From contig NZ_AUJQ01000004.1 of the NCBI RefSeq assembly GCF_000424305.1, positions 248,001-312,000 of the forward strand: a DNA stretch of 64,000 nt, written 5' to 3'. This stretch comes from Pseudobutyrivibrio ruminis AD2017. GTDB taxonomy: Bacteria > Bacillota > Clostridia > Lachnospirales > Lachnospiraceae. Shown piece after piece: positions 19,825 through 30,147 of this stretch; within the stretch, counting starts at the first letter, position 1, and the number at the start of each line of letters is the position of its first letter. The notes under the pieces were generated by a model. The model saw nothing but the letters and a program-made list of their open reading frames with translations, was not told the origin of the DNA and searched no databases. The position numbers and the translations under genes were made by a program.

Positions 19825-21690
19825 CTAAATGTGTAATGTGTCGACACCGAAAGTTCCTTGTAGTACGTCCACCAGTTGGCGGTAGGTGGAGATGGCCTCT
19901 TCGGTGTGGCCGGTGGAATCCAGGTCGGCGATTTGTTTTAGGAGGGCTTCCTCCAGATTATACATTTCGTTGAATTTTTCTGGATTTTGTTTGCGGGCTG
20001 TGATTACTTTAGCCCTCTCTCCGTATAAGCGAGACAGTTCACTTAGGGCTGTTGTCATGGCAGGGCGAATTCCAAAAAGATTTTTCAGTGTCTTTAGGCT
20101 TGTGGCAACATCCTTATCTGCGAATTCAAAGAACTCCTGCAAACCTTGTCCTAGCATGGCTGTTCGCTCCATGTGCTTTTCATCTTCTTTTCCTATCAAC
20201 CACGAATCATGCACCTTTTGCCAGTTAAGTGCTGTAGTTGCGTAATCCTGCAAGGCTGCAGAAAGCTCAGCGTAATCTTCCCATGCTTCCTGCTGCATGA
20301 ACTTACGCTCCATAATCAACACATCTATGTAAAGCTTAATTTCCTTACCACCGGGTGTTTTTTTGAAAGCCTCAGACAGCTTTTGCAGCTCTTCGATAGT
20401 CAAATCCTCAGCAATTTTATCAATCTGGTACTCTATCATATCTCTAAATCCAGCTGTAATAAAAAACTTGCTCAACACATCGTTGATTTCTCGCTTGTAC
20501 CCAAACTCTGAAGATTTTTTCAAAAGCGTATATACGAAGCCACGGTTCAATCTTACTATCTGCGAATTCCAGTTGATGCGTCTGTAATAATGGGTCAGTG
20601 GGCCATAATCATCTTCCTCCATGCCGATGGCCATGATGAAGCAATATATTAGATTTGCCTTGGTTTCATCAAAGGTATCATTTGAAAACAGGCCGCCTTG
20701 AATAAACATGGCCCCCTGGTCGCCTTTGTATTTCTCGTACATCTTCAGGTAATAATTGCAGCTGTCCTTACACTTTTGATTTTCGTGTGTTTTGAAATAA
20801 ACGGTTGATACGTAAAATGCCAGGCATGTAAGAGGAATCTCCATAATATCTGGCTTTTTGGCTTCTCTTTCATAGAGGGCAATCAGCTCATCATTCCTTG
20901 ACATCTGATGATAGGCGACGGCGATTCCACAAACAAAGCTGCCTCTATAACGCAAAATTTCATTGTCATCCACATTTAACGTCTTCTCGTATGCGTCGTT
21001 GCACACCTGAAGCATCTCCTCGAATTTCTTGATAGATTTCCACTCCTGGGCAAGCTGATAAGGCCAACGCAAATTGTCAGGCTCCTCAGCCATCATCTCC
21101 TCTAATAGAGGGATATTTCGCATAGAATGTTTGATATTTTCTTCGTCAGATACATGAACATACCCGAAATGCCCCGCTCTGGCATCCATGAACATAGCAT
21201 TACCGTAAGCTGGTTCAATATACTCATGAATCTTTCCCATAAATCTGGTTTCCGGAGTAACAGCACACATTCTACAAACCTCAATATCCTGATACTCTCT
21301 ACCATCAAAATCCAAGTAATTGCGCTGGAAATAGCCGCCGATATTGTAGCTGGTGCAATCTGGCTCCTTAAAAAATTCGATAATATATTTACAATCCAAA
21401 AACCACTCGTCATCATCTATGTACAAAAACATCTTACCGTTGGCTTGATCAAGCTGGAAGTTTCTAGCCTTTCCAAAATCGTTACACCAGGTAAATTCAA
21501 AAACTTCATCGGCATATTTTTCGATAATAGCCCTGGTTTCCTTAGAGCATCCAGTATCAACAACCTGAATCTCCGAATCGATTGCCTCGCGAATTGGCAT
21601 CAGCGATTTTAAGCATCGTTCCGTTGTGTCAGGTCGTCCGCAGCAAAGAAGTGAAATTGTAAGTAGCTTTGTTTTTGGCTTGTTATTCAT
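19825..21690 (-). CDS. Family 2 glycosyltransferase with helical-repeat C-terminus
   Basis: 621 aa from the ATG at 21690, which has GGGGAAGA upstream; the in-frame extension to 21732 lacks a ribosome binding site. The N-terminal GT-A domain (about 5-230) shows LLTISLLCCGRPDTTERCL, VVDTGCS, NDFGKARNF and the metal-binding DDDEW. The remainder is helical with TPR-like spacing. Paralogues of this architecture occur in clostridial flagellin-modification loci. It is transcribed toward the CgeB-like enzyme and away from flagellin. The sugar is unknown. Confidence 0.8.
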   Translation of the reverse strand: MNNKPKTKLLTISLLCCGRPDTTERCLKSLMPIREAIDSEIQVVDTGCSKETRAIIEKYADEVFEFTWCNDFGKARNFQLDQANGKMFLYIDDDEWFLDCKYIIEFFKEPDCTSYNIGGYFQRNYLDFDGREYQDIEVCRMCAVTPETRFMGKIHEYIEPAYGNAMFMDARAGHFGYVHVSDEENIKHSMRNIPLLEEMMAEEPDNLRWPYQLAQEWKSIKKFEEMLQVCNDAYEKTLNVDDNEILRYRGSFVCGIAVAYHQMSRNDELIALYEREAKKPDIMEIPLTCLAFYVSTVYFKTHENQKCKDSCNYYLKMYEKYKGDQGAMFIQGGLFSNDTFDETKANLIYCFIMAIGMEEDDYGPLTHYYRRINWNSQIVRLNRGFVYTLLKKSSEFGYKREINDVLSKFFITAGFRDMIEYQIDKIAEDLTIEELQKLSEAFKKTPGGKEIKLYIDVLIMERKFMQQEAWEDYAELSAALQDYATTALNWQKVHDSWLIGKEDEKHMERTAMLGQGLQEFFEFADKDVATSLKTLKNLFGIRPAMTTALSELSRLYGERAKVITARKQNPEKFNEMYNLEEALLKQIADLDSTGHTEEAISTYRQLVDVLQGTFGVDTLHI

Positions 21691-21720
21691 GCTCTTCCCC
21701 CATAACCCCATAATCTGAAG

Positions 21721-21744
21721 AAGGCTCGTCATCTGACGAGCCTT
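21721..21744 (-). terminator. Intrinsic hairpin terminator
   Basis: AAGGCTCGTC-atct-GACGAGCCTT is a perfect 10-bp stem just after the 165-aa gene. The flanking T-tract is short, so efficiency is uncertain. Confidence 0.65.
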
Positions 21745-21756
21745 GCAATTCTAATA

Positions 21757-22254
21757 TTAATATGTTCCAACAACTAGTGGTCTGTACATCTCTTCTCCTT
21801 CTGTGAGACCTTCCACCTTTCCTAAGCAGCTATCAATCAATCGGTTGATTTCGTTTGCTACAATGGCCTTCTCACCAGGTGCATCAACTAGTCCTCTAAA
21901 GTCGTAAATATCAATACTCTTTATTTCTATTATTCTATTTTCAATCTCTCTTAAGATATCACTTAAGACCATTTCGATTGAAACCTTATGATCCATTATC
22001 ATTTTTGTGTCTCTTAAGTTCTCACTTATATCGTAAATCAAATTGCAGTAATTTTCAAACTTTTCTACGATGTCCGAATAATCCATTCCCATGGATTCTA
22101 AGTATTCTCCTAATACTAAGGCTTTCTGCTGACATCCGATTAGGACTTGAAGGTCAGCTGCATCATCACCCGTTCCTCCCTGAGCGAATCTGTGGTTGGC
22201 TGTGTAGAGCTCTAAAACCATTGTCAACATCTTGTTTCTTGTAAAATATGCCAT
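21757..22254 (-). CDS. Small helical protein of unknown function next to flagellin
   Basis: 165 aa, almost wholly helical and acidic, with no signal peptide or membrane segment. The N-terminus MAYFTRNKMLTMVLELYTANHRF and the C-terminus MYRPLVVGTY show no family I recognise. The start has an AGAGG ribosome binding site. It has its own terminator and lies between flagellin and a glycosyltransferase. A role as chaperone, adaptor or assembly factor for the filament is only a guess from size and position. Confidence 0.7.
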   Translation of the reverse strand: MAYFTRNKMLTMVLELYTANHRFAQGGTGDDAADLQVLIGCQQKALVLGEYLESMGMDYSDIVEKFENYCNLIYDISENLRDTKMIMDHKVSIEMVLSDILREIENRIIEIKSIDIYDFRGLVDAPGEKAIVANEINRLIDSCLGKVEGLTEGEEMYRPLVVGTY

Positions 22255-22288
22255 AAGCCTTACCTCTCTATCTTATATGAATCTTACC

Positions 22289-22334
22289 ACCTCATCCACC
22301 ACTTCGTGGTCCCCCTTCTCCTCAAAGAGAAGGC
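22289..22334. repeat. Family C repeat, diverged copy 4
   Basis: ACCTCATCCACC, then an ACCACTTCGTGGT hairpin, then CCTTCTC...GAGAAGGCT. It is downstream of flagellin. Confidence 0.6.
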
Positions 22335-22395
22335 TAGGTATGTAAGCATTGTTTTCATTGTTAATTATTTAATTATTAGTTCTCTTTAGTAATTT

Positions 22396-22419
22396 CCCCA
22401 CCTCTTGGTTGAGGTGGGG
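22396..22419 (-). terminator. Flagellin terminator
   Basis: CCCCACCTC-ttggtt-GAGGTGGGG is a 9-bp GC-rich stem starting 28 bp after the flagellin stop. Confidence 0.8.
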
Positions 22420-22446
22420 AGATTAATTTATGGTATCAATCTTAGG

Positions 22447-23964
22447 TTACTGGAGTAAGTTCATAACACCCTGTGTAGCCTGATTTGCCTGAGCAAGCAT
22501 TGACTGACCTGCCTGCTGGAGGATGTTATTCTTAGAGTACTCAACCATTGTGTCTGCCATATCTGTATCACGGATACGAGACTCAGCTGATTCTGTGTTC
22601 TCAACTACGTTGTCGAGGTTTCTAATAGAGTGCTCTAATCTGTTCTGGATAGCACCAAGTTCCGCACGCTGTGCTGAAACTCTCTGGATTGCATCTGCGA
22701 TAGCATCGATTGCGTATGTAGCTGCCTTACCAGTTGCATCGGATACGTTGATACCGTTAATACCGATTGACTTAGAGTTCATAGCTTCGATTGCTACGTT
22801 AATCTTATTTGACATTGCTGCGTCAGCACCAACATGAAGGTTAAGTGTAAGTGCATTCTGTACATTTACATGGCCTTTGTCGATTGAGAAGCTAATTGTA
22901 GTTGTCTTCTGTGTTTCACCACCAACTGTCTGCTCAATCTCTGTTGTCTTCCATGCATAATTTCCTTTGATAACACCTTTCTTAGTAGCATCTGTCTCTT
23001 CAAATTTATCAACATCTGCTGCACCGTCTGTTGCACCTACTGAAGATGCTGCCTTAAGTTCGATTGCAACCATGTTGTATGCTGCTGTTGCTGTAATAAG
23101 TGTTGCATTAGACTTATCAATACCAGTTGTGTGATCAAGCTTAGCAAATCTTGTTACTTCGTTACCATTGTATTTAAGAGTTGAACCTTCAACGATAAGA
23201 TTATGAAGATAACCATTTGTAACTTTAGCATTTGCAACATCACTTGCTTTACCTGAGATGATTGTGTATGTCTTTCCATCGATAGAAATTGTATCACCAG
23301 CTGTAAGATTCCAACCATCTTCTACTGTATTGGCCTTTGTCTTATCATACATTCCCTCAGAGAACTTAAGGGCTCTTGCTACTTCTTCGTTTGTCTGAGC
23401 ACCGATAGTATACTGAGTTCCACCGATTCTATATCTCTCACCAGCTTCTAGAGACTCCATTGTAAATGTTGCTCTTGTAGAGTTCTGTACCAATGTTCCC
23501 TCAAGACCTGCATCGTGAGCTGCGATATACATCTTCTTTAATCCGATGTCGCCTTTAAGTAAGAATGTCTCATTGAACTTTGTTGTTGAAGCGATTCTGT
23601 CGATTTCCTGTGAAAGCTGATCAATTTCGTTCTGGATATCATCACGATCTGATTCTGAGTTTGTACCGTTAGCTGCCTGTACTGCTAACTCGTTCATTCT
23701 CTGAAGCATGTCGTGAACTTCTGTGAGGGCACCTTCAGCTGTCTGTACTGAAGAAACACCGTCAGATGCGTTTGTAGAAGCCTGGGTCAAACCACGAATC
23801 TGTCTTCTCATCTTCTCAGAAATTGAAAGTCCAGCTGCATCATCTGCTGCTCTGTTGATTTTATATCCAGATGAAAGCTTCTCTGTAGACTTAGACTGAG
23901 AATCAGTTGTAATGTTCAATGTTCTTGAAGCATTAGCTGCCTGCATGTTATGTTGTACTACCAT
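22447..23964 (-). CDS. Flagellin
   Basis: Structural subunit of the flagellar filament, secreted by the type III flagellar apparatus. 505 aa from the ATG at 23964, placed by GGAGG eight bases upstream. The conserved N-terminal D0/D1 region (MVVQHNMQAANASRTL, KLSSGYKINRAADDAAGL) and C-terminal D1/D0 (AELGAIQNRLEHSIRNL, QSMLAQANQATQGVMNLL) are intact. About 200 residues of variable Thr/Ala-rich D2/D3-like sequence lie between and would be surface-exposed. It has its own sigma-28-type promoter, a 155-nt leader with candidate CsrA sites, and its own terminator. Confidence 0.97.
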   Translation of the reverse strand: MVVQHNMQAANASRTLNITTDSQSKSTEKLSSGYKINRAADDAAGLSISEKMRRQIRGLTQASTNASDGVSSVQTAEGALTEVHDMLQRMNELAVQAANGTNSESDRDDIQNEIDQLSQEIDRIASTTKFNETFLLKGDIGLKKMYIAAHDAGLEGTLVQNSTRATFTMESLEAGERYRIGGTQYTIGAQTNEEVARALKFSEGMYDKTKANTVEDGWNLTAGDTISIDGKTYTIISGKASDVANAKVTNGYLHNLIVEGSTLKYNGNEVTRFAKLDHTTGIDKSNATLITATAAYNMVAIELKAASSVGATDGAADVDKFEETDATKKGVIKGNYAWKTTEIEQTVGGETQKTTTISFSIDKGHVNVQNALTLNLHVGADAAMSNKINVAIEAMNSKSIGINGINVSDATGKAATYAIDAIADAIQRVSAQRAELGAIQNRLEHSIRNLDNVVENTESAESRIRDTDMADTMVEYSKNNILQQAGQSMLAQANQATQGVMNLLQ

Positions 23965-23986
23965 AGTTAATTCCTCCATGAGATTC

Positions 23987-24004
23987 TGCTAATTCCTTTT
24001 AGCA
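23987..24004 (-). promoter_or_regulatory. Candidate CsrA hairpin in the flagellin leader
   Basis: On the minus strand TGCTAA-AAGGAA-TTAGCA forms a perfect 6-bp stem with GGA in the loop. It lies just upstream of the GGAGG ribosome binding site (23972-23976), itself a second GGA site. With csrA and fliW encoded about 6 kb away, CsrA repression of flagellin translation is expected. Binding is predicted, not shown. Confidence 0.6.
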
Positions 24005-24032
24005 TTTAAATCCGTTTTTGTTTGATAGCCCA

Positions 24033-24044
24033 ACATCCGTGTCT
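24033..24044 (-). promoter_or_regulatory. Second upstream CsrA-type site in the flagellin leader
   Basis: Minus-strand AGACACGGATGT matches 10 of 12 positions of the published CsrA SELEX consensus RUACARGGAUGU. It lies about 30 nt upstream of the GGA-loop hairpin. Confidence 0.45.
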
Positions 24045-24127
24045 GGCCTGGTTATTAAATTTAAAATAAGATTCGAATTCGATTTGTAAGGTGCTGCTGA
24101 TTAGTTCAATTGTTCCTTACACCTTAT

Positions 24128-24154
24128 TTATCGAGACGCATTCTGAAAACTTTA
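24128..24154 (-). promoter_or_regulatory. Sigma-28 (SigD-type) promoter of flagellin
   Basis: Minus-strand TAAA (24154-24151), a 15-bp spacer, then CTCGATAA (24135-24128), against the consensus TAAA-N15-GCCGATAA. It gives a transcript start near 24120 and a leader of about 155 nt. Confidence 0.75.
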
Positions 24155-24727
24155 GCCTTTTTTAGAAAATTTTTTATTTTTATTCCATTTTGGCCACTTT
24201 TGGGGCATAAGCAAAAAGCTGCTAAAGCCCTGATTTTACTGGCTTTTCGCGACTTTAATTTTTGTTAAAATTTATAACAATTTTTTTGTTAAATATGCTA
24301 TTTTTAGGACTAAATTGCTCTATTTTAGGGGGACTTAAGTGAAATTTCGCCTTCTGTAAAATACACTTAACTTAAAATCCAGGGACAGTTAAGTGGATTT
24401 CGCAAAAATCATTTTTCACTTAAAAAGCGAAATTGCTGTTAAGTGTGGCAGCGATATTTTTGAAAAAACTTAACTTTTTCCTTTTAATCTTTTAGATTGT
24501 TAAGTTTTTTCAACATAACTTCAGATAAACTTACCTGTTCTTTAGCATCTGTTAAGTGACAAATGAATTCTTCCATATCCACTTAACTTAACCTAAATAT
24601 CTTTAAGCTTTTTTAAGTGAAAAAATTTTTTTCTTATATAAACTTAACAGCATTCCGGAATTTTAAGTGAGAATAGAAATTCTTGATATAAACTTAACTT
24701 ATTCAGTTAAAATACCCCTAAATAAAA
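24155..24727. other. Non-coding gap upstream of the flagellin promoter
   Basis: No credible reading frame lies here. The part nearest flagellin (24155-24332) is AT-rich with runs of A and T. The distal part carries the TTAAGT/ACTTAA array described separately. The gap is bounded by the flagellin promoter and by the terminator of the FliT-like gene. Confidence 0.7.
24333..24698. repeat. Array of seven inverted TTAAGT...ACTTAA units
   Basis: TTAAGT starts at 24335, 24389, 24439, 24500, 24552, 24613 and 24663. The matching inverted half ACTTAA starts at 24365, 24418, 24468, 24529 (as ACTTAC), 24581, 24642 and 24692. The offset is 30 bp in the first unit and exactly 29 bp in the other six. The consensus half-site is about GTTAAGTG and its complement. 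The 23 bp between halves are not conserved except between the last two units. Unit periods are 54, 50, 61, 52, 61 and 50 bp. Extra overlapping ACTTAA copies lie at 24370 and 24586. The function is unknown. Confidence 0.85.
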
Positions 24728-24753
24728 CAGGCCTTGCGAACACGCAAGGCCTG
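24728..24753 (-). terminator. Terminator of the FliT-like gene
   Basis: CAGGCCTTGCG-aaca-CGCAAGGCCTG is a perfect 11-bp stem followed on the minus strand by TTTTA. Confidence 0.85.
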
Positions 24754-24764
24754 AAGGTACTATA

Positions 24765-25247
24765 TCATTTCTTTTTATCTAGGAAAGCTGGGTCCGCGGT
24801 TGTCTGTGGGCTCATCATGTGCTTGTAATATGTAGAAACTACATCTGATGATTTTTTGATTTCGCGGGCTTCCTTTTTAACGTTGGCGAATCTGGTTTTG
24901 GCATATTCTTTATTGCGATATTCTCCAGCTTCAACATCTGCTGTAAGTGCTGTGACTTTTTTAATAAGCTCCTGCATTAGCTTGATTTCATCTGCATAGG
25001 AATCCCGGTCTGCTTCGATAATAGCTTTTACTCTTTTGAATAGCTGTTCAAAGCCATCATCTAACATTACAATTCTCTCAATCAGCTCTGACTTCAAGTT
25101 CATGTTCTTCTCCAGATCATCTGGAGTAGAATTAGGGTCTTTAAGAATGGCTTCCTGCTCCTTGTTTCTTATATCAAGGATTCTAAGTACATCAGCCTTT
25201 TTCTCTAACGACTCCCTAAGCATAACAACATAATCCATATTTTCCAT
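24765..25247 (-). CDS. FliT/FlgN-like flagellar export chaperone (probable)
   Basis: 160 aa from the ATG at 25247, with GGAGG upstream. The protein is almost entirely helical with heptad-like spacing (YVVMLRESLEKKADVLRIL, LMQELIKKV) and ends in a lysine-rich tail. There is no signal peptide. Size, composition and position directly downstream of fliS fit a type III export chaperone of the FliT kind, which often follows fliS in fliD-fliS-fliT order. Sequence similarity in this family is weak, so the assignment is from context. Confidence 0.6.
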   Translation of the reverse strand: MENMDYVVMLRESLEKKADVLRILDIRNKEQEAILKDPNSTPDDLEKNMNLKSELIERIVMLDDGFEQLFKRVKAIIEADRDSYADEIKLMQELIKKVTALTADVEAGEYRNKEYAKTRFANVKKEAREIKKSSDVVSTYYKHMMSPQTTADPAFLDKKK

Positions 25248-25272
25248 ACCTGTCTCCTCCATTACCTAGTCC

Positions 25273-25360
25273 GTATTCGTTATGCAGACAATAATTATTT
25301 CATTACGCTCAGCTAGAAATGCTTCGCTTAAATAAAACAATTATTGTCTACTACGAATAC
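25273..25360. repeat. Family A palindrome, copy 4
   Basis: GTATTCGT...ACGAATAC outer arms, an inner AGACAATAATTATTT against AACAATTATTGTCT stem, and the loop TTACGCTCAGCTAGAAATGC, closely matching the complement of copy 6 at 39718. Confidence 0.8.
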
Positions 25361-25390
25361 TCATTGTCAGCAACCTTAGTATGCTCCGAA

Positions 25391-25472
25391 CGCTGGTAGG
25401 TAACAATTATTTATATACACAAGGAGCCAATCTCGCGACGGTGTATATAAATGATTGTTACCGTAACCAGCG
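25391..25472. repeat. Family A palindrome, copy 5
   Basis: CGCTGGT...ACCAGCG outer arms, then GGTAACAATTATTTATATAC against GTATATAAATGATTGTTACC. It shares GTAGGTAACAA and CCGTAACC with copy 6. It lies 30 bp from copy 4, in tandem. Confidence 0.8.
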
Positions 25473-25490
25473 CACACAGCCTACATAACT

Positions 25491-25514
25491 GTAGCCCCTC
25501 GGATGAGGGGCTAC
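25491..25514 (-). terminator. Hairpin after fliS
   Basis: GTAGCCCCTC-ggat-GAGGGGCTAC is a perfect 10-bp stem directly after the fliS stop. The T-tract is weak. Confidence 0.6.
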
Positions 25515-25517
25515 GAT

Positions 25518-25928
25518 TTAACCTGCTATGTTTGTTTGCCCATCCACCTTTTTGCCGTTGGCGGTGAGCTTCATTACGTCCTTCCAAGTGTCCCTCATGG
25601 TGCGCAAGTGCTTTAGCACTTCCTCAAGCTCATCAGGTTCCTTAGTTATCATGGCATGTCTTAAGCAGCTCCTAAGATAACTATACACTGCATGGAAGTC
25701 TTTTGCCACTGGATATTTATCATCAAGAGTAATTTCAAACTCTTCTATTATTCTGTCAGTCTTGCGAATATTGTTGTGTGCCTTTTCAATATCATGATTT
25801 TCACATGCCACAATTGCAATATTACAAAACTTGATGGCTCCTTCATACAGCATCAATGTCAACTCTGCTGGACTAGCTGTTAAAATTCTGTTTTTTGCGT
25901 AAGCATCGTAACCATTCATTGGTGTCAT
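25518..25928 (-). CDS. fliS: Flagellin export chaperone FliS
   Basis: Binds the flagellin C-terminus in the cytoplasm and prevents premature polymerisation. 136 aa from the ATG at 25928, with AAGGGGGCGG upstream; an in-frame ATG at 25964 lacks a ribosome binding site. Family motifs are visible: YAKNRILTASPAELTLMLYEGAIKFC near the N-terminus and a helical RKTDRIIEEFEITLD region. It follows fliD by about 50 bp. Length is typical for FliS plus a short C-terminal tail. Confidence 0.95.
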   Translation of the reverse strand: MTPMNGYDAYAKNRILTASPAELTLMLYEGAIKFCNIAIVACENHDIEKAHNNIRKTDRIIEEFEITLDDKYPVAKDFHAVYSYLRSCLRHAMITKEPDELEEVLKHLRTMRDTWKDVMKLTANGKKVDGQTNIAG

Positions 25929-25978
25929 AGTACCGCCCCCTTGTAAATCCTTTTCGTTTCGCATTTAATACTTACTTA

Positions 25979-28534
25979 TCAACCGCCCAGTAGCGATGAT
26001 ATTGACGAAGAATTGCCTTGTAATGTAGCCAAGGCTTTTTCCATTGCTGCAAATTTCTTATAGTATGCATCCTCCATGTCTGTTACTCTGTCAGTCCATG
26101 TTTTAATGGTTCTGCTGTAATCAGAATATTCAGATGCCATTTCCTTGTCATTGTATACCGTATATACGGATTTGATTGCAGATGACTTCATCTTTCCATC
26201 TAATGCTGTGTAAAGACCACTTGTCACCTTCTTCAAAAATTCAATAACAACCTCTGGGTCCTCTGCTAAAGCTGCACGTAATTTTTCTTTATTATTAGCT
26301 GTGTAGTTATCTTCAGCATCCCCATCAATATGATAAGCATATCCTTCGTTCTTTTCTGCATTAAGTGAGCCTAGAGTGTGGACACCAAATGTAGACCAGG
26401 AATATGTTTTACCATTTATTTCGTAGGTGCTCATCATAGACATGGTCATTGAGGAAATGATGCTTGATAAGGTTCCATCTCTTCTAAGGAGAGAATCCTT
26501 AATCTTCTGTTCCCATTTCTCAATTTCTGACTCTGACATTTCTGCCTTTTCATCATCTGTAAGAGGCTCATAGTCCTTGGCTGAATCTGCATTGTATAAT
26601 TTTTGCATTTCATTCATAAGACTATTGTAGGTTGTCAGATAGTCTTTAATCTTGTCATAAAGAGCATCTGTATCATTTGATACGTTTACAGTGATTGCAT
26701 CTGTAGTTACTGCCAGCGCCTCAATAGTAAGGCCATTAACTGTAACAGCATTTGAACCGTTTGAATATTCAACACCATTAAGATTAATAATTGCATCCTG
26801 GCCATCGATTTTGATTGCTCGGTCTGTGTTTTCGATAGTGATGTTGCCTGAAGCTACGTTAGCAGCCAAATCAATTCTATAAAATACGCTGTTTGCAAGC
26901 TCGATGTTATCTGACTGAATCCAGAAATTGCTGTAGCTCTTGTCGTATTCAGAATTCTGTGCGCCAAAATTCTGCTCGATATAATCTGCCCACTTTTTAT
27001 TAGTAGGATCATCTAAGGCTTCCTTAAGCTTTGCTTCTGCATCTGCTATTGCTTGTGCTCTAATAGCGATTTCCTCAGATGTTTTCTGTGGAAGAGCCTT
27101 AGCAGATGCAATCGCAACATATCCATCACGAACTGCATTCAATGCTTTAGACATTTCTTTGTAGGTTTCATCAGATGCCATATCATAAGTAGCATTTGAA
27201 TATATCTTAGCTGCTAAAGCATTCAGCTTGTCCTCGTCAGCAACTAGCGCATCCCAATCGATGTTTCCATCTGTACCATATTTTTCTACCGTGATTCCAT
27301 CGTTAGTTGTTGTGGTTTTGTATACTTCACCTGCATAGGTCTTGTTAAGATAATCCTTGAGAGCAACAATGTTCTCATCTGTTGAACCAGATTGGATTTG
27401 TTTAATCAAATTTGCAAAGCCTTCTGCATTTTCGGCGAAGGAATAGTTCTTTGCGTCGTCGCCCTCTCCTACTGTGAAGTAAAGTGAGCGGCTCATGACT
27501 GTAGATTTTGTACCTGTAGTATCGTATACAGAATCCTTGTAGGCTAAGGCCGCAAGATTATCCAGAGCGTCATCGCTGATTGTGGTCCAGTCGATGGCTC
27601 CATCTGTTCCGTACTTATAGGTGTTTACTACATCCTTGCCATCCTCGCCCTTTGTTGTAACTGTATATTCCTTGTCAGCATACTTATTTAGATATGTTTC
27701 CAAATCTGTAAGCTGTGCAACCTTTTCATCATCGAATGTAGCTGTTCCTTGTTTATAATTCTTAAGGTCTGTAAGAAGCTGCTTCATTTCAACGGAATCA
27801 AGCAGATAATCATATCCGCCTTCTCCAGTAGAAAATAGCTTCTTTGCAAGGCTTCCACCTGTTGCATTGTTGATATTACTAACTTCTGAATCTGACAATA
27901 GACCCATATTCTTAAGGGCATTCAAGCCCTGGGCACTATTTGCAGATATAGTAAAATCACCAGCTGCGCCAGATGTTTTTGAGCTGATGTAGAATCTTTG
28001 GTTCTTTTCATCAAAATTAGCATCGACTCCTGCTTCTGCCAGCTTATTGACAAACTGGTTAACTGTCATATCGCTATCAAGCTCGATGTTTGTAGCCTTT
28101 GTACCAGTTCTGATAGAGATGCTAGCCTTTTCCATTGCACTTGTGCTTTTGATTCCAAGTGTGCCAAGTGTTGTTGAGCCAGTAATGCTTCCGTTAAGCT
28201 TTGCACCTGTAATATAAGCTGTCTTTGCAAGCTGCTTAATTTCAAGAGTTTGTGTACCAGTGATAGCAGAGCCGGTGGCTGTTGCCTTGGCCTTTGTGGT
28301 ATCACTTACAGTTGTCTTTTTAACCTGATAATTTGATGATAGACGCATGGAGCCTACATTTGTGTAGAAGCCATACACCTTACTATTCAAGGTCTTCCAA
28401 GCATCCTGCTTCCAAGATAGCTTAGTCTGAGCCTTGATATATTTATCCTTCTTAAAGCTATAAGCTGATACGAGGGCGCCTACGATGGCCTCTGTATCCA
28501 AGCCTGATGCCAAGCCTGATAATCTAATAGGCAT
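25979..28534 (-). CDS. fliD: Flagellar filament cap protein FliD, enlarged
   Basis: Caps the growing filament and guides flagellin insertion. 851 aa, much longer than the usual 450-650. The conserved N-terminus (LSGLASGLDTEAIVGALV, 5-22) and C-terminal FliD region (YDKIKDYLTTYNSLMNEMQKLY; final coiled segment with MEDAYYKKFAAMEKALATLQ) are intact. Residues about 278-340 and 392-452 are an internal duplication sharing YLNK, KYGTDGxIDW and LxALA motifs, and this partly explains the length. It is 10 bp after flaG in the sigma-28 and possibly CsrA-controlled flaG-fliD-fliS transcript. Confidence 0.96.
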   Translation of the reverse strand: MPIRLSGLASGLDTEAIVGALVSAYSFKKDKYIKAQTKLSWKQDAWKTLNSKVYGFYTNVGSMRLSSNYQVKKTTVSDTTKAKATATGSAITGTQTLEIKQLAKTAYITGAKLNGSITGSTTLGTLGIKSTSAMEKASISIRTGTKATNIELDSDMTVNQFVNKLAEAGVDANFDEKNQRFYISSKTSGAAGDFTISANSAQGLNALKNMGLLSDSEVSNINNATGGSLAKKLFSTGEGGYDYLLDSVEMKQLLTDLKNYKQGTATFDDEKVAQLTDLETYLNKYADKEYTVTTKGEDGKDVVNTYKYGTDGAIDWTTISDDALDNLAALAYKDSVYDTTGTKSTVMSRSLYFTVGEGDDAKNYSFAENAEGFANLIKQIQSGSTDENIVALKDYLNKTYAGEVYKTTTTNDGITVEKYGTDGNIDWDALVADEDKLNALAAKIYSNATYDMASDETYKEMSKALNAVRDGYVAIASAKALPQKTSEEIAIRAQAIADAEAKLKEALDDPTNKKWADYIEQNFGAQNSEYDKSYSNFWIQSDNIELANSVFYRIDLAANVASGNITIENTDRAIKIDGQDAIINLNGVEYSNGSNAVTVNGLTIEALAVTTDAITVNVSNDTDALYDKIKDYLTTYNSLMNEMQKLYNADSAKDYEPLTDDEKAEMSESEIEKWEQKIKDSLLRRDGTLSSIISSMTMSMMSTYEINGKTYSWSTFGVHTLGSLNAEKNEGYAYHIDGDAEDNYTANNKEKLRAALAEDPEVVIEFLKKVTSGLYTALDGKMKSSAIKSVYTVYNDKEMASEYSDYSRTIKTWTDRVTDMEDAYYKKFAAMEKALATLQGNSSSISSLLGG
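27179..27703 (-). repeat. Internal duplication within fliD
   Basis: Coding segments 27515-27703 and 27179-27361 encode similar blocks of about 60 residues (YLNK..., KYGTDGAIDW against KYGTDGNIDW, then LAALAYKDSVYD against LAAKIYSNATYD). The divergence indicates an old duplication in the exposed part of the cap. Confidence 0.7.
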
Positions 28535-28544
28535 AAGCTACCTC

Positions 28545-28967
28545 CTATCGTTTCTCATCTACCATAATTCCTGCAAGCTCCCAAGCCTTTGCAATAAGGT
28601 CGAGGGTTTTATCTGCTGGGAATTCCTTAATAACCTCTTTGGTTTCCTTATCAACCATTTTGATGGTGACACGATTAGTGCCTTCATGGATACCAAAAAC
28701 TGCTTCTGCATTTCCATTTGCAGAATTGATTTTTTCTACAGCTTCCTTTAATGAAGATGTAGCCTGCTGTGCAGGATTCTTTTCAGCTTCTTCTTTCTCA
28801 GGGTTTGCTGAAAAACTTCTATTTTCAGAATCAGCCTTTGCCTCTTTAGCAGCAGCTGTAAAATCAACTATTGCACTATCCTTTTGAACTGCTGGTGCTG
28901 GCGCCGCTTTTACTGAACTTCCCTGTCCCTGGTAGCTAACTGCGCTACTTACTTCGCCTATTTTCAT
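28545..28967 (-). CDS. flaG: FlaG-family protein
   Basis: 140 aa from the ATG at 28967, with AGGAGG eight bases upstream; the frame extends to 29030 without a start signal. A low-complexity Ala/Glu/Lys N-terminus is followed by the FlaG core (about 80-140: FGIHEGTNRVTIKMVDKETK and EVIKEFPADKTLDLIAKAWELAG). FlaG proteins affect filament length in other bacteria; the mechanism is unclear. It is first in a flaG-fliD-fliS transcript. Confidence 0.93.
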   Translation of the reverse strand: MKIGEVSSAVSYQGQGSSVKAAPAPAVQKDSAIVDFTAAAKEAKADSENRSFSANPEKEEAEKNPAQQATSSLKEAVEKINSANGNAEAVFGIHEGTNRVTIKMVDKETKEVIKEFPADKTLDLIAKAWELAGIMVDEKR

Positions 28968-29026
28968 TTCTTTCCTCCTTACGCCTAAACGAATCAGGTC
29001 CCACTCCTCAATCCGTAAGGCAATAT

Positions 29027-29038
29027 ACATCCTTGTAA
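29027..29038 (-). promoter_or_regulatory. Strong CsrA-consensus match in the flaG leader
   Basis: Minus-strand TTACAAGGATGT matches 11 of 12 positions of the CsrA SELEX consensus RUACARGGAUGU. It can fold as TACA-AGGA-TGTA with GGA in the loop. It lies between the sigma-28-type promoter and the flaG start; the AAGGAGG ribosome binding site provides another GGA. Confidence 0.6.
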
Positions 29039-29067
29039 TATGGGAAATTTTTAGTTTTCTAATCTTA

Positions 29068-29095
29068 TTATCGTCACCACGTTATCGAAAGTTTA
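29068..29095 (-). promoter_or_regulatory. Sigma-28-type promoter of flaG-fliD-fliS
   Basis: Minus-strand TAAA (29095-29092), a 16-bp spacer and GACGATAA (29075-29068), seven of eight matches to GCCGATAA. The predicted start is near 29061, about 95 nt before the flaG ATG. Confidence 0.6.
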
Positions 29096-29125
29096 TAGCT
29101 ACAGTGAAATTTTTCTAAATATTAC

Positions 29126-29262
29126 GATACGGCTCGTAGTTTTCCGTGCTCCCGCAGGGTACCCTCCATACCTAACCATGGGAGCCCGCCGGCGTGGGCC
29201 CCCACCCATGGTCAGGCATGGCGCCCCCCTGCTCGCGCTTGCCTAGGTTATGAAGCCGTATC
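29126..29262. repeat. Family B GC-rich palindromic repeat, copy 2
   Basis: GATACGGCT (29126-29134) pairs with AGCCGTATC (29254-29262). The inner CCGTGCTCCCGCAGG and CCTGCTCGCGCTTGC are shared with copies 1 and 3. The central part holds a CCATGGG...CCCATGG hairpin. It is very GC-rich against AT-rich surroundings. Confidence 0.8.
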
Positions 29263-29276
29263 TTGATAACAAAAAA

Positions 29277-29310
29277 AGAAAGCCTACAGCATTTTTACTG
29301 TAAGCTTTCT
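29277..29310 (-). terminator. Intrinsic terminator of the csrA transcript
   Basis: Minus-strand AGAAAGCTTACAG...CTGTAGGCTTTCT hairpin followed by seven T. It lies between two family B repeats. Confidence 0.8.
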
Positions 29311-29335
29311 ATTATATATCGTTCTTATATACCAA

Positions 29336-29466
29336 GCGGCCACACAACCTACGCAAGCGCGAGCAGGGAGGCACCATACCGAGCGAGGGAGGACCTACGC
29401 CGGCGGGAGGACCCTCGCGAAAGTATGGAGGGTGCCCTGCGGGAGCACGGAAACCTCCGAGGCCGC
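29336..29466. repeat. Family B GC-rich palindromic repeat, copy 3 (inverted)
   Basis: GCGGCC and GGCCGC arms enclose GCAAGCGCGAGCAGG on the left and CCTGCGGGAGCACGG on the right, the reverse orientation of copies 1 and 2. It lies 5 bp from the csrA stop, between csrA and its terminator. Confidence 0.8.
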
Positions 29467-29470
29467 GCCA

Positions 29471-29692
29471 CTATAGCAAATTCTTAAGAGCTTCAAGGTC
29501 GTCCATGCTGATTCCCTTGGCTGCTTCGTTTTCTTTCTGGATTTCAAGGTATACTTCTTTGCGGTAGATAGACACTTCCTTTGGAGCCGAAATACCGATT
29601 TTGACCTGATCACCACGAACTTCAAGGACTGTAATCTCGATGTTGTTGTTGATCATAATCGCGTCGCCTGTTTTTCTTGTTAATGCCAACAT
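29471..29692 (-). CDS. csrA: RNA-binding carbon storage regulator CsrA
   Basis: Dimeric RNA-binding translational repressor. In Firmicutes it represses flagellin synthesis and is antagonised by FliW. 73 aa: MLALTRKTGDAIMI at the start, GDQVKIGISAPKEV, and the RNA-contacting Arg44 in VSIYRKEVY. It begins two bases after the fliW stop, so the two are translationally coupled. Likely targets in this window are the flagellin, flaG and FliD-like leaders (prediction). Confidence 0.97.
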   Translation of the reverse strand: MLALTRKTGDAIMINNNIEITVLEVRGDQVKIGISAPKEVSIYRKEVYLEIQKENEAAKGISMDDLEALKNLL

Positions 29693-29694
29693 CG

Positions 29695-30147
29695 CTACTC
29701 ACCATCCTTTCCATGTATTGCATCATGAATAAGGAATCGAACTGGCTCATCCCCATCTATGATTATCTGATCGCCTACGTTTGTGTCGGTATTGATGATA
29801 ATAGGAGCCTTTAAATTGATAGATGCCTCCTTTGGATTCTTTGGAACTCTTACAGTGACAAGTACGTAAGTATTATCTGCTGTAAGCTCACCAAGCTGTG
29901 ATAATGAATCTACATTCAAAGCTGGTGAATAATCCGGTTTAACCACGTGTGGCAACATGACTGGCATAGCAAAATCTGTCTCGTCCAGTGACTGGAGCCA
30001 CATGATATTGCCCTTGTCCTTTTTTTCTTCGTCGAAAATGAGAGTATATCTCTTCATGTCTGGAAAACCTATAAGCCCATGAAGTAAATTGATAATTTTT
30101 TCATCGGAAATCTCAATTTCGCCGAATAATCTAGTTTTTACTTGCAT
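29695..30147 (-). CDS. fliW: Flagellar assembly factor FliW
   Basis: 150 aa. FliW binds either flagellin or CsrA, so it couples the cytoplasmic flagellin pool to its translation. Family features visible are FGEIEISDEKIINLLHGLIGFPDMKRYTLI at the N-terminus, NIMWLQSLDETDFAMPV in the middle, and a C-terminal acidic segment. The start follows AAGGAG. It is transcribed between flgL and csrA. Confidence 0.96.
   Translation of the reverse strand: MQVKTRLFGEIEISDEKIINLLHGLIGFPDMKRYTLIFDEEKKDKGNIMWLQSLDETDFAMPVMLPHVVKPDYSPALNVDSLSQLGELTADNTYVLVTVRVPKNPKEASINLKAPIIINTDTNVGDQIIIDGDEPVRFLIHDAIHGKDGE

Follow-up and report, generated by a model that had tools for sequence, protein, structure and literature searches.

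Between a flgN-like flagellar chaperone gene and a flagellin gene of Pseudobutyrivibrio ruminis AD2017 lie seven inverted units of the form TTAAGT..ACTTAA, repeated at regular distances. What is such an array for, and which protein would read it? In this study we address this question starting from the window, i.e. the whole stretch of 64,000 nucleotides that was analysed, and extending the comparison to the whole genome, to the genus and to other Clostridia.

Results

Structure of the array upstream of flagellin

The seven units, six of which are exact, span positions 24335-24697 (Table 1). Rereading the DNA confirmed the description given in an earlier sequence-only reading: TTAAGT starts at the seven positions that had been listed, the inverted half follows at an offset of 29 bp (30 bp in the first unit), and the ACTTAC half of the fourth unit keeps its position. 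Unit starts are spaced 54, 50, 61, 52, 61 and 50 bp, units 2 to 7 forming a mirror-symmetric block (50-61-52-61-50) and unit 1 outlying by 54 bp. The array is intergenic, occupying the space from the flgN-like terminator to the flagellin promoter region. It holds all six exact units of the window, while 100 dinucleotide shuffles gave a mean of 0.04 and never six. The minus strand of the array folds better than shuffled sequences (z=-6.28); within positions 20000-30000 no Rfam family reached its gathering score, and a match to CRISPR-DR51 in this region scored 26.4 bits against a gathering score of 45.

Table 1 Features of the flgN-flagellin region, in window positions
Feature	Positions	Strand	Remark
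Flagellin gene	22447..23979	minus	context
Sigma-28-like flagellin promoter	24128..24154	minus	TAAA-N15-CTCGATAA, by eye
Unit 1	24335..24370		TTAAGT-N24-ACTTAA, outlying
Unit 2	24389..24423		TTAAGT-N23-ACTTAA
Unit 3	24439..24473		TTAAGT-N23-ACTTAA
Unit 4	24500..24534		second half degenerate, ACTTAC at 24529-24534
Unit 5	24552..24586		TTAAGT-N23-ACTTAA
Unit 6	24613..24647		TTAAGT-N23-ACTTAA
Unit 7	24663..24697		TTAAGT-N23-ACTTAA
Intrinsic terminator hairpin of upstream flgN-like gene	24728..24753	minus	borders window array
flgN-like flagellar chaperone gene	24765..25262	minus	FlgN E=4.7e-5, below Pfam cut-off

Distribution of TTAAGT arrays

The genome contains 75 exact TTAAGT units, 73 of them in 14 clusters and the remaining two isolated; one of the clusters, the remnant at C1:86 kb, contains a single exact unit. 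The reversed pattern occurs 3-4 times. All 14 clusters are located between larger genes; four touch or overlap the ends of mechanically called ORFs, three of which are small. Their neighbours share no common theme and comprise an ABC-transporter operon, a P-type ATPase, thiC, an alpha-amylase, HSP20 and patatin genes, a class II (D/K/N) tRNA synthetase, uvrB, a peptidase S41, a CstA-like carrier and others. Judged by eye and without a control, about half of the arrays adjoin terminators.

The sequence-only reading had proposed, among other possibilities, a cooperative operator upstream of flagellin, and would have taken the array for chance repetition if the pattern stayed at genome background or was lacking from orthologous flagellin loci. 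The pattern is well above background (75 units against 3-4 for the reversed one), but it is not tied to flagellin: the same arrays adjoin thiC, uvrB, the HSP20 gene, the ABC-transporter operon and the alpha-amylase gene, and 20 flagellin upstream regions of the genus are short and carry no array. With 73 exact units in 14 clusters beside unrelated genes, the link to flagellin is incidental. We thus reject a flagellin-specific operator, although a local effect of the window array on flagellin is conceivable.

Across 29 genomes of the genus the unit count ranges from 0 to 75, and across 32 genomes outside it from 0 to 5. Among the matches listed, clear arrays are found at six Pseudobutyrivibrio loci (L098, L123, L131, L138, L145 and L149). 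Outside the genus, a looser pattern gave several-pair matches at at least three genome loci and at least nine viral ones, such as L194; L158, L160 and L190, found in the loose scan, resemble short-period repeats.

Helical phasing and conservation of the half-sites

Spacings between neighbouring units were collected from 28 TTAAGT arrays of several species. Of these 175 spacings, 13 are at 40-43 bp, 107 at 50-54 bp, 41 at 61-64 bp and 5 at 71-72 bp; the rest are eight at 30-31 bp, which we think come from overlapping calls at ACTTAAGT, and one gap of 144 bp, with none falling between the classes. For a period near 10.5 bp the vector strength is about 0.8 (0.81 at the best period, 10.2), and 2,000 random sets all remained below the observed value (99.9% quantile 0.28), the spacings not being independent draws since the arrays are related to each other. 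In some arrays, with spacings of 50-61-42-72-50, one unit is displaced by a single helical turn and the total length is kept.

The half-site consensus in 170 sites is approximately WGTTAAGTKWAWW, its six core letters being fixed by the search. In 24 aligned orthologous array pairs, which were found via exact half-sites and are not independent, several sharing one genome, half-site columns changed in 51 of 1916 cases (2.7%) and the other columns in 1105 of 7558 (14.6%); after removal of the 18 fixed columns per pair, half-site change is 51/1484 (3.4%). For the window array itself, comparison with G019 gives 6 of 90 half-site positions changed versus 155 of 314 in the rest, and comparison with G011 gives 16 of 104 versus 144 of 301. 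Both the earlier proposal that selection acts on half-sites and spacing and the suggestion that the unit periods are compatible with helical steps are therefore upheld: half-sites persist in arrays that otherwise diverge, and the 175 spacings advance in steps of about 10.5 bp.

Presence or absence of arrays in different species

Empty and filled array sites are both present across the genus, and many arrays occupy corresponding positions in several species. Arrays at the flagellin site occur in G000, G011, G019, G023 and G025, and arrays at the uvrB site in G000, G004, G014, G018, G019, G023 and G025. The gap between flgN and flagellin, which was measurable in genomes other than G017 and G023, is 782-1122 bp in G000, G006, G019 and G025 (in G011 the flagellin start is not reached), and 205-435 bp in 20 array-less genomes, including the close relatives G014 and G015; in G016 and G021 it is 931 bp with no units. 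Similarly, the gap from thiC to the cytidylate-kinase gene is long (532-561 bp) in G000, G014 and G023 and short (65-71 bp) in G006, G018 and G025, the kinase not being found next to thiC in 19 of 25 thiC regions. A target-site duplication was sought by eye at the thiC and flgN sites and none could be defined; the flanks differ too much between species for the array borders to be placed to the base.

The flgN-flagellin gap of G006 (L285) holds a degenerate array of TAAGTG type with one exact unit; in that of G025 (L286) a degenerate array of similar kind is fused to a piece of an array. In G017 (C101:4475-7849) there are three successive matches to the flgN-like protein, two of which consist of the C-terminal 36 residues alone.

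A candidate binding protein encoded beside uvrB

One of the arrays lies upstream of a gene that adjoins uvrB and encodes P0001, a divergent PD-(D/E)XK protein of 264 residues. Among the 26 uvrB regions examined (of 28 found), the P0001 gene is present in nine, and all nine contain TTAAGT half-sites. In the regions of G006, G011 and G027 the gene is accompanied by one or no exact unit, and that of G021 has three units and no P0001 gene; in G018 the uvrB-bearing region has neither gene nor array, both being located on another contig.

Ten of the 29 genus genomes, holding 75, 61, 42, 38, 37, 37, 36, 20, 10 and 2 units, encode a near-full-length protein whose identity to P0001 is 46% or more; the 19 genomes without this type of gene hold 0-12. 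Units thus concentrate in gene-bearing genomes (Mann-Whitney p=3.9e-5), and 10 or more units are found in 9 of the 10 gene-bearing genomes versus 1 of the 19 others (Fisher p=9.5e-6), with thresholds set after the data had been seen and with p-values that overstate independence because the genomes are related. The exceptions are G006 (10 units) and G027 (2 units), which have the gene, and G021, which has 12 units and no gene at uvrB. The P0001 genes of G006, G027 and G011 are diverged (46-55% identity) and go with degenerate arrays of TAAGTG type. The dimeric regulator that the sequence-only reading had left without identity can be replaced by a concrete candidate, the PD-(D/E)XK protein beside uvrB; the role it had been given at a flagellin operator is not supported.

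Protein domains and half-site specificity

The C-terminal domain of P0001 was modelled with confidence (pLDDT mostly >90). In a structural comparison covering the families on the VIA list, its best match is the homing endonuclease I-Bth0305I (3r3p; Z 8.9 over 89 residues, rmsd 2.9), followed by Bax1 (Z 8.6) and TnsA (Z 6.9, values under 8 possibly meaning little); Foldseek returned one match under E 0.001. All 25 aligned members have E162, D192, E207 and K224 without variation. The modelled fold together with these putative catalytic residues places the domain in the PD-(D/E)XK superfamily. The PADLOC models PDC-S68 and HEAT_CxxC_PDDEXK match 25/25 and 18/25 aligned members, respectively, with E up to 1. 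Pfam and NCBIfam gave no family match better than E 0.003, no HUH or transposase family appears among the best 25 of 33 weak Pfam matches, a sequence search of solved structures returned no credible relative, and a protein search of plasmid, phage and viral contigs returned partial, domain-level relatives alone.

The model of the N-terminal domain is poor (mean pLDDT 41.7). A resemblance by eye to integrase arm-binding or AP2 domains has weak support: Pfam Arm-DNA-bind_1 matches 1 of 25 proteins (E=0.072), a PHROG integrase matches 1 of 10 N-terminal pieces (E=3.2e-4), and a Pfam search with N-terminal pieces gave nothing integrase arm-binding or AP2-like.

Half-site identity tracks this N-terminal domain better than it tracks the nuclease domain. 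Among 35 proteins labelled with a half-site (36 pairs sharing one, 559 not), N-domain identity averages 51% for the same versus 25% for different half-sites (AUC 0.95), and C-domain identity 68% versus 48% (AUC 0.90); in a joint model of half-site sharing the N domain predicts (coefficient +2.2) and the C domain does not (-0.5). The proteins of L424 and L452, for example, are 95% identical in the C domain and 36% in the N domain, and their half-sites differ, the label of L452 resting on two pairs. As the array adjoins the N-terminal coding part, array and N domain could swap as one cassette.

A family of nuclease genes with their own arrays

Matches to P0001 number up to 11 per genome and, close relatives aside, are mostly 24-44% identical among the matches listed. 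Upstream regions were searched blindly for repeated inverted hexamers, taking the best gene per genome and some others, i.e. 42 genus genes (41 distinct), one more having too short an upstream region. We found 3-8 pairs upstream of 30 of the 42, two in 6 and one in 6, where shuffles reach 1-2; downstream there is at most one pair, except in L438, which has a real second array. Outside the genus, 26 loci from few genera (13 of them from two) gave 3-7 pairs in 14, two in 7 and fewer in 5, one of these last with only 75 bp upstream, the best shuffle reaching 1-2. Fewer than three upstream pairs were thus found in 12/42 genus and 12/26 other genes, in 6 and 5 of which the count is no better than chance. 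A draw of 293 Clostridia genomes yielded matches at E 1e-20 or better in 25, representing 14 of 180 genera; some of these matches are to the nuclease domain alone.

The half-sites of the family include TTAAGT, GCATCC, TACAGT, TACGG, GCAGTAC, ACTATC, ACCACTA, TGTCAC and TACGTG, among others. For the classes other than TTAAGT, 125 spacings from 25 of 26 arrays (five of the 26 being second or solo arrays) are likewise phased, falling at 51-54 bp (88), 61-64 bp (21), 73-74 bp (13), 94 bp (1) and 104-105 bp (2). In the background of 608 kb of fetched DNA, arrays of other classes occur away from a nuclease gene at three places (L273, L368 and L375), two of which are orthologous; second arrays near the nuclease gene are found in L438, L441 and L443.

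In this genome the pattern of a second class, TACTAY..RTAGTA, is matched 91 times, against zero matches for the reversed control. These matches fall at 12 places; at two of them the arrays lie on either side of the nuclease gene of this class, as direct repeats 87% identical over 329 bp. Over 274 bp, two solo TACTAY arrays 238 kb apart are 96% identical, and a third copy shows 80% identity over 197 bp. The near-identity of solo arrays at such a distance suggests that array DNA was recently copied to a new location. In the G009 locus L451, the array is built from 52-bp tandem units that are almost identical, so that tandem amplification may renew arrays.

Several individual loci deserve description. 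In L438:2538-4090 and L443:12100-14450 a nuclease gene stands between direct-repeat arrays of the same class (87% and 73% identical, respectively), an arrangement like that of LTR-like repeats. L451:3860-4300 (G009) and L436 (G000) have the same upstream gene and related proteins, with GCAGTAC in the former and TACAGT in the latter (by eye). Solo-looking arrays of further classes are seen in other species, at L375:5777-5980, G019:C15:246310-246624 and G011:C1:642344-642439 (TTACCACTGTAA; ACTATATA..TATATAGT). In L439:3780-4530 (G000 C7:168.98-169.73 kb) a CCACTA(G) array lies beside a tRNA-Leu gene (ARAGORN, L439:4376-4455, minus strand); the array is bordered by an inverted piece of the tRNA-Leu 3' half, and the tRNA itself contains the half-site word too (by eye). 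From this tRNA case, new half-sites may be captured from neighbouring DNA.

Discussion

The window array is, on sequence grounds, very probably a solo copy, in trans, of the cognate array of the PD-(D/E)XK protein. The complete explanation, in which a nuclease-plus-array module beside uvrB has this array as one of its solo cognate sites, we consider likely. The N domains of a dimer would sit on two inverted half-sites 29-30 bp apart, about three turns, and six or seven such dimers, stacked along the same side of the DNA, would form a single cooperative nucleoprotein complex; a large ordered protein-DNA assembly is also what the strict helical phasing, kept up for hundreds of base pairs, predicts. 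The array adjoining the gene may control expression of the nuclease gene, and solo arrays may hold, store or recruit the same protein around the chromosome.

Other readings of the arrays account for part of these data. If they were operators of an ordinary global regulator or nucleoid protein, with the nuclease gene as one target, their location between unrelated genes, often directly upstream of one, and the conservation of half-sites in place would be expected; yet this leaves unexplained that most of the paralogous nucleases tested carry a different half-site in the same geometry, that half-site type follows the nuclease N domain, and that units concentrate in genomes with the uvrB-linked gene, and we regard it as improbable. 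Non-functional transposon remnants, or MITE-like debris, would agree with presence or absence at the thiC and flgN sites and with near-identical copies at distant places. Half-sites and helical spacing, however, have survived where the rest is about 50% different at the same place, as in G019, and we regard this reading as very unlikely.

A cooperative operator specific to flagellin is hardly credible: the array does lie 5' of the flagellin promoter, at a site filled in the five genomes given above, but 13 other arrays in the genome are beside unrelated genes, and the flagellin gap is short and array-less in G014, G015 and 18 others. The folding of the minus strand could point to a structured RNA with repeated hairpins, and we grant this just as little credit, the stem words being constant between units with no paired changes (by eye), no Rfam family attaining its threshold around the array, and the phasing in 10.5 bp steps favouring DNA. 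As for repetition by chance, the region is AT-rich, but 0.04 units expected against six in the window, and 3-4 for the reversed pattern against 75 in the genome, make it negligible.

Returning to the nuclease-plus-array module, its biological role can be framed in more than one way. We lean, with considerable doubt, towards a selfish or defensive module, spreading and retuning its own arrays in the manner of REP/RAYT with another enzyme. Equally tentative is the proposal of a new class of Clostridia element, a nuclease with an exchangeable recognition domain and a phased array, self-copied, cassette-swapped and present as several modules per genome. Driven by the nuclease, copies of its array would reach intergenic sites, the recognition domain would be exchanged jointly with the array as a cassette, and several modules of different specificity would coexist in one genome, as in an arms race. 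Half-sites kept for long in solo arrays would be accounted for by host use, by titration of a harmful nuclease or by continued dispersal, each of which would do; usefulness to the host explains this conservation no less well than selfishness does.

An unannotated multi-copy family with no credible Pfam or NCBIfam match is now tied to a readable DNA code. Since most of the genes tested show their likely target in the upstream array, protein-DNA specificity should be learnable from genomes alone, and natural swaps of the recognition domain offer ready-made tests. If the protein spreads or polices its arrays, gut and rumen bacteria would possess a selfish or defence module of a new kind.

The earlier statement that no element of this form had been described agrees with the libraries and literature searched, in which we found no description of a phased-array element or of a nuclease-plus-array module; the nuclease-plus-array modules across Clostridia apparently constitute an undescribed family. 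Several known systems resemble them in part. The array is not a CRISPR array: there, unique spacers separate direct repeats of about 24-37 bp that are nearly identical, and the repeated words here are inverted pairs of 6-8 bp. The PADLOC candidate defence systems PDC-S68 and HEAT_CxxC_PDDEXK have in common with this family, in the member shown, the terminal nuclease domain: the first member matches the PDC-S68 profiles at positions 1091-1226 alone, roughly the last 120 of these profiles, which have 1202-1273 positions against about 265 residues here. The architecture is thus a different one, a protein of 264 residues being combined with an N domain and an array of its own.

In homing endonucleases a specificity part is joined to a nuclease, and I-Bth0305I, one of the PD-(D/E)XK type, is the best structural match of the catalytic domain. 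These enzymes reside in introns or similar places and cleave a single long site; the sites described here, in contrast, form arrays of about 4-11 paired half-sites, many of them solo copies. The mycobacteriophage repressor is a DNA-binding protein with many dispersed intergenic stoperators and diverging specificity classes, and the arrays are likewise dispersed intergenic sites with diverging classes, but they belong to a bacterial chromosome, go with a nuclease domain and are phased instead of single.

Finally, in its supposed mode of action the module comes closest to REP/RAYT (REPtrons), in which REP repeats are found beside the RAYT gene and between genes. RAYTs are HUH proteins related to the IS200/IS605 transposases that process single-stranded REP; the repeats are thought to be spread by the protein, with which they co-evolve (PMC8266576). 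The C domain described here is PD-(D/E)XK and not HUH, and its sites are phased pairs of half-sites, so that with an enzyme of another superfamily the module is not a member of REP/RAYT. Like REP/RAYT, it combines a chromosomal nuclease-type protein with cognate short repeats, which lie both beside the gene and dispersed, here in two classes (TTAAGT and TACTAY).
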